Source: Actinomyces ruminicola (GTDB lineage: Bacteria; Actinomycetota; Actinomycetes; Actinomycetales; Actinomycetaceae). Taken from it: a stretch of DNA of 64,000 nt. A model generated the notes under the pieces. It was not told the origin of the DNA and searched no databases. It worked only from the letters and a program-made list of their open reading frames with translations. Positions within the stretch are counted from its first letter, which is position 1. Every line of letters starts with the position of its first letter. The stretch covers positions 540,138-604,137 of the forward strand of contig NZ_FNIM01000001.1 of assembly GCF_900103885.1 (NCBI RefSeq). Direction: 5' to 3'. Made by a program: the position numbers and the translations under genes. Of this stretch, positions 1,199 to 42,374 are shown one piece after another.

Positions 1199-1323
1199 GT
1201 TGTGCTCCACTGCGAGCCCCTTACGTCAGGTCAGGTTGTACGAGCACTCGCCGAAGAGCACCCGCTGATCACAATCCTACCGCTTGGTCCATTGTTTGGG
1301 AAGACCCCCGCCCACCCCCGCCG

Positions 1324-1379
1324 AGATCGGCAGAAGTTACGTGCCCAGATCGGTAGAAGTTACGTGCCCAGATCGTTCG
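1324..1379. repeat. Tandem array, 23-bp period, 2.4 copies
   Basis: Two near-identical units start at 1324 and 1347 (AGATCGGYAGAAGTTACGTG plus CCC), with a partial third at 1370. They differ at one base. The array lies between the divergent GH3 and MarR genes. The same unit occurs in inverted orientation at 4468-4513. Confidence 0.85.
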
Positions 1380-4172: not shown

Positions 4173-4530
4173 CCTCCGGGGAAGACCGGGACGGGCGATC
4201 AGACCCGGGTCGGAGGGTGCGGCGCAGCCGCCTCACCCGCCGACCCGCGTTCCACACCCCCGGCCGAGGGCCTCCCTCCGTACGTCTACACACACGAGTT
4301 CGCCTCTCACGCACGGATTCTCCTCAGAGACACGAGTATTTGAAGCCTTGCAGGTGTTAGACCCGTGTAGAACTCCAAAACGCGTGTCCTTGGCGGCAAC
4401 GCGTGATCATCGCGCGTACACGCCGGCTATTCCTTGCCCTCCACCTCCTTATCCGCGCCGCCGCGCCACTTCTACCGATCTCGGCACGTGACTTCTACCG
4501 ATCTCGGCGGAGGGAGCGAGTCAGCGCAAC
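4173..4530. other. Intergenic region holding the inverted repeat array
   Basis: 358 bases between the XRE gene and the end of the LysR gene. I see no credible gene. It holds the 23-bp array at 4468-4513, and a pair of AACGCGTG-type words near 4380-4405 with no clear structure. Confidence 0.6.
4468..4513. repeat. Tandem array, 23-bp period, 2 copies, inverted relative to 1324
   Basis: Two units start at 4468 and 4491 (ACTTCTACCGATCTCGGC plus five more bases). Their reverse complement matches the unit at 1324-1379 (GATCGGTAGAAGT core). Together the two arrays form an inverted pair bracketing the MarR-MATE-XRE segment. The second copy ends 17 bases before the LysR stop codon. Confidence 0.85.
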
Positions 4531-38944: not shown

Positions 38945-40204
38945 TCAGTGGCGCAAGCAGGCCAGGGGGATGACGAGCACGCCGTCGTCACGCCGGTAGG
39001 CGGTGGCGCCCGCGGTGATCACGGCGAGGAAGGAGGGCTCCCCCATGCGGGCTGTATCCACGCGATCGCGCAGCCGCCGCAGGTGGGCGGCGGCGTCGTC
39101 GAGTTGGCGCGAACCGAGCTTCACCTCCAGCGGCGCCCACCGTCCGTCGGCGAGGACAACGACGGCGTCGGCCTCCAGCCCGGTCTTGTCACGGTAGTGG
39201 AAGAGCGTCCCGTCGTTGGCCTCGGCGTAGACCCTTAGGTCGCGCACGCACAGCGACTCGAACTGCAGTCCGAAGGCCTCGAAGTCGCGCAGCAGGTCGG
39301 CCGGCGCCCACCGCATGACGGCCGCACCGATTGACGGGTCCACGAAATGACGCGTCGGGCTGGTTCGGATTGCGGTCTTCGAACGCAGCGCGGGAGTCCA
39401 GGCGGGCAGGTCCTCAATCACGTAGGCACGCGACAACGCGCCGAGGTAGTCGCTGACGGTGTTGGGCGCCATGGTGGCATCGTCGACGGCGAGGTCCGCG
39501 GCGATCGTGGCCTGCGCGGCCCGGGTGGAGACGTGGCGGGCGTAGGCGCGCATGAGTGCGCGCATACGCGTCGAGTTGCGGGAGACGCCGTCCATGCGGG
39601 CGACATCGGAGTCGATCAGGCCCTCTACATAGTTGCGCGCCAGGCGTCCGGGCGACGCCGTCGCACCTGCGGTGACGGCGGCGGGCCAGCCGCCGCGGCA
39701 CAGAATCCGCGCTATGTCTTCCACGTCTAATGCGCTGACACCCGCGACCTCCGCCTCCCCATCGAAGAGCGCCCGCAGGGACACCTGCCCGGTGGACTCC
39801 TCCGACTCGAAGAGCGCCATGGTCCGCATGACGAGGGTAGCGATCCGCCCAACGCCGGAGTGCGCGCCCTGGGCGGTCGGCGCGGCCGAGCCGGTGAGGA
39901 TGAACTGCCCGGGCTCCCCGCGGCGGTCGACGGCGAAGCGGACGGCGTCCCACAGCTGTGGCGCCATCTGCCACTCGTCAATGAGCCGCGGAGTGGCCCC
40001 CTCCAGCAGCGCGGAGGGCTTGGCATCCGCGAGAGCGATGTAGGACTGGCTGCGATCGGGATCCTGCATGTAGATGACGCTGCCGGCCTGCTGCAGGGAT
40101 GTGGCGGTCTTGCCGCACCACTTCGGACCCCTGACCTGCACGGCACCACTAGTTGCTAGGGCGACGGCGAGCAGGTCATCTGCCACACGCGGCAGATAAC
40201 GCAT
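38945..40204 (-). CDS. P-loop ATPase with C-terminal DUF4143 domain
   Basis: A 419-residue protein. N-terminal AAA-like ATPase: Walker A GPKWCGKTATSLQQ (residues 26-39), Walker B LIDEWQMAP, sensor-like FILTGSAAP. The helical middle carries a winged-helix-like section, then the DUF4143 domain, which has a PD-(D/E)xK-nuclease-like motif (EADAVVVLADGRWAPLEVKLGS). Function of this family is unknown. The start is at ATG 40204 with GGAGGA upstream. Its promoter region contains four 23-bp tandem units. A second, frameshifted member lies at 41010-42272. Converges with the lyase gene (4-base gap). Confidence 0.87.
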   Translation of the reverse strand: MRYLPRVADDLLAVALATSGAVQVRGPKWCGKTATSLQQAGSVIYMQDPDRSQSYIALADAKPSALLEGATPRLIDEWQMAPQLWDAVRFAVDRRGEPGQFILTGSAAPTAQGAHSGVGRIATLVMRTMALFESEESTGQVSLRALFDGEAEVAGVSALDVEDIARILCRGGWPAAVTAGATASPGRLARNYVEGLIDSDVARMDGVSRNSTRMRALMRAYARHVSTRAAQATIAADLAVDDATMAPNTVSDYLGALSRAYVIEDLPAWTPALRSKTAIRTSPTRHFVDPSIGAAVMRWAPADLLRDFEAFGLQFESLCVRDLRVYAEANDGTLFHYRDKTGLEADAVVVLADGRWAPLEVKLGSRQLDDAAAHLRRLRDRVDTARMGEPSFLAVITAGATAYRRDDGVLVIPLACLRH

Positions 40205-40259
40205 CAGTTCCTCCTCCGGCTTGCGAAACCCGCATGTCTCCGCCTCTAAGCCTAGCCGA

Positions 40260-40347
40260 TTGCGTGAGTCGGACGGGTTTCATTGCGTGAGTTGGACCGA
40301 TTCTGTTGCGTCAGTTGGACGGGTTTCGTTGCGTGAGTTGGACGGTG
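40260..40347. repeat. Tandem array, 23-bp period, four copies, upstream of the DUF4143 ATPase
   Basis: Units start at 40260, 40283, 40306 and 40329, each close to TTGCGTGAGTTGGACGGGTT plus three bases. The period is exactly 23. The array lies 56-143 bases upstream of the ATPase start codon and contains no spacers, so it is not CRISPR. Confidence 0.88.
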
Positions 40348-40440
40348 CGGCGCCGCCAGCCGCAGCGATGACGGGCGCCTGCACGAGTCGCCACCTCCGC
40401 AGCCCGAGCCGGCGCCGCCGGCCGGGCTGCCGCCCGCGAC

Positions 40441-40893
40441 CTACTGCTCCTTCCAGCGGCGCAGCTGGGGCAGGACCGCACTCAGGTAGGAGACGGCCTC
40501 GTCCTCCGTGATGTGCGCGCTCTCGGACACGTACGGTGCGCTGTGCTCAATCAGGTCCTCCAACGTCTCCGGACCGACAAAGGCGCCGTCCTGGTAGCAC
40601 ATGGAACAGTAGTCCTCGGACCTGGTCCCATTGGCCTCGCTGCCGTGCTGCCCCTCCCTTGGAATGGGCATGCCGCAGCTCTGGCAGTGCGGGCCGGGCG
40701 GAGCCTCGAGCAGGCGGGTGACCGGCACGTCGAGCGCGGCGGCCAGCAGCTTGCACATGTCGATGCCCGGGGTGGTGGCGCCAGTCTCCCAGCGCGAGAC
40801 CGCCTGCCGGGTCACCATAACCCGATCCGCGAGCTCCCCCTGAGTCATCCCCCGCGCCCCCCGGACGTCGGCGATGATTTCTCCGATTGTCAT
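40441..40893 (-). CDS. XRE-family HTH regulator fused to a zinc ribbon
   Basis: A 150-residue protein. Residues 3-60 are an HTH (IIADVRGARGMTQGELADRV, TRQAVSRWETGATTPGID). Residues 80-145 match the putative zinc-ribbon family: CQSCGMPI ... YCSMCYQDGAFVGPETLEDL. Four cysteines in two CxxC pairs are present. The ATG at 40893 has AGGAG 6 bases upstream. HTH plus this zinc ribbon is a known pairing in Firmicutes and Actinobacteria with unknown signal. It stands alone between the two DUF4143 genes. Confidence 0.82.
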   Translation of the reverse strand: MTIGEIIADVRGARGMTQGELADRVMVTRQAVSRWETGATTPGIDMCKLLAAALDVPVTRLLEAPPGPHCQSCGMPIPREGQHGSEANGTRSEDYCSMCYQDGAFVGPETLEDLIEHSAPYVSESAHITEDEAVSYLSAVLPQLRRWKEQ

Positions 40894-41009
40894 GTCGTTC
40901 TCCTGTTCCGCGGCACACCAACCGCGCCGCAGCACAAGAACACCACAGAGCCCCGATCCCGTCGAGCAACAGGTTGTTGCATCACAACGCGGCGCCAGCC
41001 CGACGCCGT

Positions 41010-42272
41010 TTACGGGCGCAGCGCGTGCAGTGGGAAGGTGAGGACGCCGTCGGGCAGTCGCATGGTCGGCCCGTCCGCGGTCACGACAGCGGTGAAGACC
41101 GGCGCCGGCGTGCGCTCGACGTCGATATCCGCGACGAAGGCCGCGAGCGACGCCCGTCCCTTCGGGATCTGCCGCTGGCCGAGCTTGAGCTCGAATGCGG
41201 CCCAGCGTCCGTCATCGAACTCAACGACGGCGTCGACCTCCTTGCCGGACTTGTCCCGGTAGTGGTACACACGCCCGCCCCGCAGCTCGGCGAAGGTCCG
41301 CAGGTGCTGGACGACCTGGGATTCGAACCACAGCCCCGCCGTCTCCAGGTCCTGCATGAGCCGCTCCACCGAGGTCGCGGTGATGGCAGCCGCCAGGGCG
41401 GGGTCCACGAAGTGGAGCTTCGACGAGGTGCGCACTGCATAGCGAGAGCGCAGGTGCGGGGTCCATGCGGGCTGCTCCTCTACGATGAACAGCCGCTTGA
41501 GCGCGTTCACATAACCGACGGCGGTCTCCGCGCTCAGCGTCCGCGCCGTCACGTCCCTGGCGATGGTGGCGAACGAGGCCTCAGTGGCGATATGGCGCGC
41601 CAGTGAGCGCAGCAGCGCCTGCAGCCGGATCGGGTCGCGACGGGGGCTCCCCGTCGAGTCGCCCCACGTCGACATTGACGACGTCCTCCACATAGTCGCG
41701 CAGATGCCGCTGCGCCTGAGCGGCGGACGCATCGAGGTCGCCCGGCCGGCCGCCGTGTATTAGCGCGTCCAGGGCCTCCCGGACGCTCGTGCCGGATTCG
41801 AGCACGGGTTCCGGACCGTCACCGTTGAACAGAGCCGCCAGCGAGACGTCCCCGCCGCCCAGACCGCGCTCGAACAGGGTCATGGGTCGCATCCGCACCC
41901 TGGAGATGCGGTGGCGCCGGAGCAGCGCGTCGCATCCTCGGCGGGGACAGAGGACCCGGTGAGAATGAACTGCCCCGGGCTCCGCCTGGCGTCGATCTCC
42001 CTACGGACTGCGTTCCACAGGTCCGGCGCGAGCTGCCACTCATCGATCAGCCTGGGGGTATCGCCGTCCAACAGCAGCGCGGGGTCGAGGTCCAGCGCGG
42101 CGCGGATCTGCGGCAGGCCGGAGTCCAGCGTCACTTCCGAGGCCGCATGCTGCAGCCCGGTCATGGTCTTGCCACAGGCGCGCACACCCTCAATCAGCAA
42201 ACCGCCTGAGTACCCCAGGACACCGTCAACGGGGGCGTCAACGACACGAGGACGGCAGCTCACATCAGCCAT
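41010..42272 (-). pseudogene. Second DUF4143 P-loop ATPase, two compensating frameshifts
   Basis: About 420 codons. The first part starts at ATG 42272 (AGGAGG upstream): MADVSCRPRVVDAPVDGVLG, Walker A GVRACGKTMTGLQH, Walker B LIDEWQLAP, FILTGSSVP. Near 41915 the frame shifts: adding one C on the coding strand restores SGAHRISRVRMRPMTLFERG. Near 41642-41646 (a run of five G on the plus strand) it shifts back: removing one base restores RLDGEPRRDPIRLQALLRSL. The end (EVDAVVEFDDGRWAAFELKLGQ) is in the original frame. Both lesions are in short homopolymers, so sequencing error is a real alternative; otherwise it is decayed. Clearly paralogous to 38945-40204. Confidence 0.8.
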
Positions 42273-42316
42273 CAGCTTCCTCCTGCAATGCAGCGCAAGG
42301 CCCACCTCAATCCGGG

Positions 42317-42374
42317 AGTTGGCGCCATTTCGACCCGGCATTTGGCGCCGCTTCAACTGGACAGTTGGCGTTCG
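42317..42374. repeat. Tandem array, 23-bp period, upstream of the second DUF4143 gene
   Basis: Units start at 42317, 42340 and 42363 (AGTTGGCGCCATTTCGACCC plus three; ATTTGGCGCCGCTTCAACTG plus three; AGTTGGCG partial). A degenerate fourth unit may start at 42294. Period is 23, as at 40260, and the unit shares AGTTGG and TTTC words. The array starts 45 bases upstream of the start codon. Confidence 0.8.

Follow-up and report, generated by a model that had tools for sequence, protein, structure and literature searches.

Genes for PDC-S01-type DUF4143 ATPases carry gene-specific 23-bp repeat arrays at their putative promoters that the encoded proteins probably read themselves

PMC12988326 describes PDC-S01 as an ATPase fused to a PD-(D/E)XK superfamily domain and ranks it as the fourth most common defense across all prokaryotes, while most PDCs still await validation. 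It is also reported to have crossed between domains in multiple transfers and to be, in rumen genomes, the individual locus encountered most often (PMC12988326, PMC13356809; 2026). The main text of PMC12988326 contains none of the terms promoter, direct repeat, and tandem repeat, and a literature search for DUF4143, COG1373, and PDC-S01, with bioRxiv preprints (including the one that named the PDCs) outside its scope, returned no report of arrays, promoter, or working mode. Here, we analyze a 64,000-nt stretch of the Actinomyces ruminicola genome (3.1 Mb in 39 contigs), hereafter the window, that contains a gene of this family at positions 38945–40204 with a tandem array of 23-bp units directly upstream. 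Arrays of this kind precede nearly all close relatives of the gene, with units that differ from gene to gene, and we consider it probable (about 0.72) that the protein binds its own array and autoregulates. A preliminary description of the window had regarded DUF4143 ATPases as having no known function, a view that needs qualification in that PADLOC already lists the family as the candidate phage-defense gene PDC-S01. The features that bear on this reading are the following:

38945–40204, minus strand: intact AAA_14-DUF4143 gene, a PDC-S01 candidate (Pfam, PADLOC, AlphaFold model, fold comparison).
40249–40254, minus strand: −10-like hexamer TAGGCT, at a distance of 19 nt to position 1 of the final array 1 unit (sequence, and register statistics over 86 arrays).
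40259–40345, minus strand: array 1, four 23-bp units of approximately TCCAACTCACGCAATGAAACCCG (minus strand), directed at the gene at 38945–40204 (Tandem Repeats Finder (TRF) and layout).
About 41010–42273, minus strand: second AAA_14-DUF4143 gene, split across reading frames and either broken or mis-sequenced (open reading frames (ORFs) and Pfam).
42302–42370, minus strand: array 2, three 23-bp units of another sequence than array 1, CGCCAACTGTCCAGTTGAAGCGG and variants (minus strand) (TRF and layout).

TRF assigned a period of 23 to both arrays, with 3.8 copies and a score of 118 for array 1 and 3.0 copies and a score of 61 for array 2, and each array lies directly upstream of a minus-strand AAA_14-DUF4143 gene. 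The preliminary description had placed period-23 arrays at 40260–40347 and 42317–42374, upstream of two paralogous P-loop/DUF4143 genes. Both arrays and both family assignments were confirmed, but array 2 begins about 15 bases earlier and the second gene is split between frames, its DUF4143 and AAA_14 parts lying in separate ORFs; its array still has three units. The word AGTTGG, correctly recognized as shared by the two arrays, reads CCAACT on the opposite strand, which is the conserved initial portion of the unit. The notion that 23 bp amounts to about two helical turns, so that all repeats face the same side, does not hold exactly: B-DNA has 10.5 bp per turn, and 23 bp is therefore about 2.2 turns, so the units are not exactly on the same side. 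A further DUF4143 gene, the third in this genome, lies on a different contig (locus L001); it is intact and has a period-23 array at 809–873 near its start codon, bringing the occurrence of such arrays to 3 of the 3 DUF4143 genes found in A. ruminicola.

Searching for repeats upstream of homologues, the check proposed in the preliminary description, revealed gene-specific period-23 arrays at nearly all genes of the window subfamily. We used the best 80 of at least 580 relatives from GTDB genomes (47–86% identity, most of them metagenome-assembled), which belong to Actinomycetota, Bacteroidota, Clostridia and other Bacillota, Spirochaetota, Proteobacteria, relatives of Acholeplasma/Izemoplasma, a Lentisphaerae metagenome-assembled genome (MAG), and archaeal MAGs. 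Four had too little upstream sequence, leaving 76, and three others with stops or unknown residues were omitted from the alignment. An array was called present when the self-match had a period of 23 or 46 and a score of at least 12, a threshold that misses weak arrays and may count a few chance ones. On this basis, 70 of the 76 full-length relatives (65 of 70 non-redundant), which span at least six phyla including archaea, have an array directly upstream. Among the six that failed, three have a best period of 23 at a score of 10 to 11, and L146 has a clear 23-bp array outscored by another repeat. The hold-out set was drawn from the orders centered on a Prevotella, a Lachnospiraceae, and a Treponema genome, those genomes themselves, and one archaeal genome; 13 of its 103 loci (L223–L325) were excluded beforehand as copies of training loci, fragments, or members of another subfamily. 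An array is directly upstream in 87 of the 90 remaining relatives (79 of the 82 left after removal of 8 further loci that were at least 90% identical). Control segments had a period of 23 or 46 in 0 cases inside the gene, 0 far upstream, and 1/75 and 3/87 downstream, while other periods reached a score of at least 12 in up to 12/75.

The units, usually three to five, are near-identical inside many arrays and different between genes. A common phase of many (not all) units reads G/T, C, C, A, A, A/C, T/C, then 4 to 5 variable positions, an AA step, and an A run. In the 3.1-Mb window genome, the 15-base core of the array 1 unit is confined to array 1 at up to one mismatch (4 of 4 sites), and at two mismatches 8 more core sites appear versus 13 for the control pattern. 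The tested units of a same-genus relative (6 of 6 sites) and of an archaeal genome with 23 family matches (4 of 4) occur solely in their own arrays at up to three mismatches, with 0 control sites. The unit is thus unique to its own array in all three genomes tested. The archaeal MAG of L176 holds 23 subfamily profile matches (E up to 1e-30), about 20 of them full length, in 1.6 Mb, and the units differ among many of the copies inspected.

The arrays also appear to be positioned with respect to transcription. In 86 phased arrays (which, like the 59 training pairs used below, include a few same-gene copies such as L140 and L069, so that the main counts were repeated without copies), the −10-like pattern TANNNT, with offsets counted from position 1 of the last unit, peaks at 19–21 (30 sites) and 42–44 (25 sites), compared with an expectation from shuffles of 2.8 sites per offset. 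The two peaks are 23 bases apart, such that the last unit overlaps the −35 region or lies directly before it. The gene at 38945–40204 is of the first kind, with its predicted −10 TAGGCT at 40254–40249 and the last unit over the −35 region. The sequence thus places the array at the putative promoter of its own gene, in register with promoter-like sites. Judging by this layout, repression is the more likely outcome where the last unit covers the −35 region, and the protein could act as an activator where the −10 is at offset 42–44.

The window protein (419 residues) matched Pfam DUF4143 (PF13635, E 8.9e-30, 104 bits, cut-off 28.1) and AAA_14 (PF13173, E 2.9e-10, 40.7 bits, cut-off 27), both above the Pfam cut-off. 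It also matched the PADLOC PDC-S01 model PDLC04790 over its full length (residues 1–417, E 2.8e-68); a PDC-S01 model was the best PADLOC match for 5 of 5 proteins scanned, with E 2e-144 for the L001 protein. The AlphaFold model (mean predicted local distance difference test score of 93) is predicted to consist of three parts, with borders read off the model: a nucleoside triphosphatase core (residues ∼1–180) resembling those of nucleotide-binding leucine-rich repeat (NLR) and signal transduction ATPases with numerous domains (STAND) proteins, a winged helix (∼187–285), and a PD-(D/E)XK domain (∼300–419). Fold comparison of the model identified the STAND/NLR core as nucleotide-binding domain plus winged helix, and residues 300–419, beyond that core, bear the nuclease motif. 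The nuclease-like motif noted previously in the C-terminal domain is intact, as the D...ExK residues E344, D346, E360, and K362 are invariant across 22 diverse members; among 77 members D346, E360, and K362 remain invariant and E344 is kept in at least 90%.

The earlier idea that the ATPase recognizes its own upstream array gains support from covariation between residues and units. Among the columns of the 59 phased training pairs, the association was strongest between residue 340 and unit position 2 and between residue 248 and position 12; the top 12-residue windows fell within 237–259, the presumed recognition helix plus preceding residues. K340 occurs with C at position 2 in 44/46 pairs and non-K in 0/13 (38/40 and 0/13 after removal of near-identical genes). 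A fixed phasing rule could be applied to 24 of the 82 non-redundant hold-out arrays, and among these K340 accompanied C in 15/16 and non-K in 2/8 (Fisher P 0.0013). On a FastTree tree built without the tested columns (164 branches), 13 changes map to residue 340 and 12 to position 2, with 8 changes on the same branches; the joint-change P of ∼5e-8 assumes equal odds for every branch and a single placement of ties. It is mainly because these two change on the same branches that the protein itself seems to read the array. At residue 248 in the hold-out, N occurred with C at position 12 in 4/6 and D/E with G in 4/7 (P ∼0.04 each), and D248 occurred with C at position 11 in 6/6 versus 2/18 (P 0.0002), a pairing picked after looking. 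A phase-free comparison placed the top 12-residue window within 333–345 in both training and hold-out; column N248 ranked 1 of 363 in training.

Taken together, these observations are consistent with a model in which each PDC-S01 subfamily gene would be a self-contained unit of an ATPase-nuclease-like protein and a directional array in the promoter region of that gene. Unit positions 10–12 would lie close to the recognition helix of the winged helix (residue 248 and its neighbors) and unit position 2 close to a nuclease-domain loop (residue 340), and head-to-tail assembly of the protein on the array would control its own transcription. Such autoregulation might hold the amount of a potentially harmful nuclease constant. 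We infer physical binding, cooperativity, dependence on ATP, nuclease activity, the direction of control, and any defense role. Self-matched arrays would give PDC-S01 its first testable biochemistry, with a DNA ligand readable from its own promoter and a partial recognition code, and they offer a way to ask what triggers the system; gene-specific units may also explain how many paralogues coexist without cross-talk.

Several results weigh against autoregulation through the array. Period-23 arrays without an adjoining DUF4143 gene occur in the A. ruminicola genome and in viral contigs, and a −10 at offset 42–44 puts the array upstream of the −35 region, where simple occlusion does not fit. The phasing rule reached a small share of the hold-out arrays, replication of residue 248 in the hold-out was moderate, and its column N248 ranked only 38 of 387 in the phase-free hold-out comparison (T249 was first and K340 17th). 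Residue 341 was rejected as a code letter after failing on the hold-out (T with C 0/3, D with T 0/1, N/S with A 12/17 against a base rate of 18/24). In the 16 arrays of one archaeal genome taken alone, residues 248, 340, and 341 ranked 249, 240, and 232 of 335. As a rule for the whole family, the reading is also opposed by the 38 of 84 genes with a chosen start that have no direct array at score 15.

The wider family was sampled with 101 DUF4143 loci from the own genome, relatives from 39 genomes, and a phylum-wide sample of 149 genomes, which contributed 30 loci from among its matches (a few fragmentary matches in another search were left out). The best upstream self-match period was 23 in 52 loci, 46 in 8, 22 in 5, and 24 in 1, and a period of 22–24 or its double with a score of at least 15 was present upstream of 54 of 100 genes, one locus having no sequence. 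Seven control segments of this set gave such a period in 0 or 1 of 96–101 each and any period in 0 to 8, and 2 of 500 shuffles reached a self-match score of at least 15 at any period; these controls rule out that chance or composition produced the arrays. In a tree of 84 proteins from a quick search, the arrays fall mostly in one large clade. The expectation that arrays accompany DUF4143 genes generally is therefore borne out for about half of the wider set, but other clades lack direct arrays, and a direct array at all DUF4143 proteins is ruled out. Some of those clades are palindromic instead: a strong inverted repeat is directly upstream of 11 of the 38 array-less genes versus 0 of 76 control segments (of the 46 array-bearing genes, 3 have one as well). 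Promoter repeats specific to each gene may thus recur in the wider family. At L037, L042, L050, L053, L055, and L082, strong palindromes immediately precede the start, and direct arrays are absent.

Nor is the array a general feature of accessory genes. At 30 Fic loci from the same genomes, the self-match was at least 15 at some period in 56 of 766 windows, and period 23 appeared only in L128, L136, and L122, the first two being arrays of neighboring DUF4143 genes. The array in L122 (∼2830–2880), a locus of a relative, is an orphan with two units of the type of the window's array 2 and lies where no DUF4143 match was reported; it is perhaps a remnant of gene loss. This orphan array adjoins a gene that resembles, by eye, a gene between the two DUF4143 genes of the window:

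40441–40893, minus strand: HTH_3 and Zn_ribbon_2 gene (Pfam scan).

Period-23 arrays at unrelated genes, which, if equally common there, the preliminary description had named as one observation that would count against it, are scarce at Fic loci, but a dispersed 23-bp family does exist in the genome. The 23 period-23 TRF rows in 864 kb rule out that this period is exclusive to DUF4143 genes in A. ruminicola. Sorted by eye, 16 rows belong to one dispersed family (unit GCCGAGATCGGTAGAAGTTACGT), 3 are DUF4143 arrays, and 4 are others; because most of the rows come from a family with another unit, period 23 alone is not specific. The dispersed family occurs in the window at 1320–1375 (plus strand) and 4458–4507 (minus strand) and forms 40 clusters of one to four sites on the contig at up to six mismatches. 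Some clusters are convergent pairs 0.7–3 kb apart around ordinary genes, and no DUF4143 gene was seen alongside.

Among the other explanations, the one that survives best, though unlikely, takes the array as a sensor: invader DNA with matching units would titrate the protein off the promoter, which would increase expression and direct the nuclease to the invading DNA. This is suggested by viral contigs. The general two-unit pattern occurs in 33 of them, with exactly two units each and no family gene on the stretches examined, and the exact 19-base unit form GCCAAACTCGGAAGTRAAA occurs in 26 versus 0 for the reversed pattern, each of the 26 having a second unit 23 bp away that matches 9 to 15 of 15 bases. 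Many of these contigs are related, however, with about a dozen separate contexts among the 26 (by eye), and they were examined in part only. Several of the elements coincide with or closely precede the starts of phage genes, for which they could serve as the phages' regulatory sites; gene names here were read from translations by eye, and some of the two-unit arrays in L417, L418, L420–L443, and L444–L471 are at or immediately before the starts of M15-peptidase-like, ThyX-like, and small-terminase-like genes. Two other units matched no viral contig, named phages and plasmids with matching arrays gave only chance-level E-values (for phages, with either the window array or a typed double unit), and the exact common unit occurred in 0 of 395 Bacteroidota genomes, with no host match among them. 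The viral two-unit elements may be phage operators, decoys, or targets. A fuller version, which we rate as slightly less probable still, would make PDC-S01 a minimal NLR-like nuclease that senses DNA by its array: the promoter array would store an inactive head-to-tail assembly, and matching 23-bp phage or plasmid units would pull the protein off, raise expression, and deliver the nuclease to the invader. If the array does act as a sensor, one unit per paralogue would turn a multi-copy genome into a set of orthogonal DNA sensors, and the viral two-unit arrays would be targets or decoys.

Equally improbable as that fuller version is that another host DNA-binding protein, an activator or silencer, binds the array, with the ATPase as its regulated cargo. 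Direct-repeat operators for separate regulators are common, and the HTH_3/Zn-ribbon gene lies between both window genes. Against such a regulator, the array follows the gene across phyla into archaea, where no common regulator is expected, the unit changes on the same branches as the ATPase's own residue, and each unit tested, in three genomes, is confined to its own gene.

Least probable is an iteron-like origin or transposon end with the gene as the replication or transposition protein of a minimal mobile element: ORC/Cdc6 ATPases are among the Foldseek matches, the subfamily occurs in distant phyla at 47–86% identity, and the dispersed A. ruminicola family has convergent pairs resembling element ends, but the array is directly upstream of the gene (the downstream segment having one in only 1/75 and 3/87), in register with promoter-like sites, and limited in its unit to one array in three genomes, and no replication or transposase domain was found by Pfam among nine window proteins scanned. 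Some viral arrays also fit an origin. Arrays of three GCCAAA words spaced 23 bp apart are present in 51 viral contigs, in one of which a family gene adjoins the array on the stretches examined, and those in L368, L370, L396, and L384 lie by DnaB-like helicase genes or within a replication-like ORF; such arrays may be phage origin iterons.

The reading in which the protein binds its own array and regulates its own gene can be set beside several known systems. PDC-S01, the PADLOC single-gene ATPase with a PD-(D/E)XK domain, is the same family as the window protein, and the passages of PMC12988326 on it mention no array or promoter element. The archaeal Walker-type ATPases 2qen (PAB2304) and 2fna (SSO1545) are further close counterparts, and the alignments to them do not cover the nuclease part. 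No operator array is known for either of these two proteins. Compared with NLR/STAND ATPases such as plant RPP1, CED-4, and EfAvs5, the window protein has only 419 residues, a C-terminal nuclease-type domain, and a winged helix that apparently reads DNA. MalT and ORC/Cdc6 (weak Foldseek matches 8bob and 2qby) are likewise ATPases with DNA-binding domains, and direct repeats serve MalT as activator sites. Both MalT and ORC work at multiple genes or origins, whereas here the unit occurs solely at its own gene in the three genomes tested. The C proteins of restriction-modification systems and toxin-antitoxin operons are autoregulated mobile genes whose self-specific operator travels along with them. 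Here, in contrast, regulator, ATPase, and nuclease-type domain would be united in one protein, and the putative operator usually consists of three or more direct repeats.

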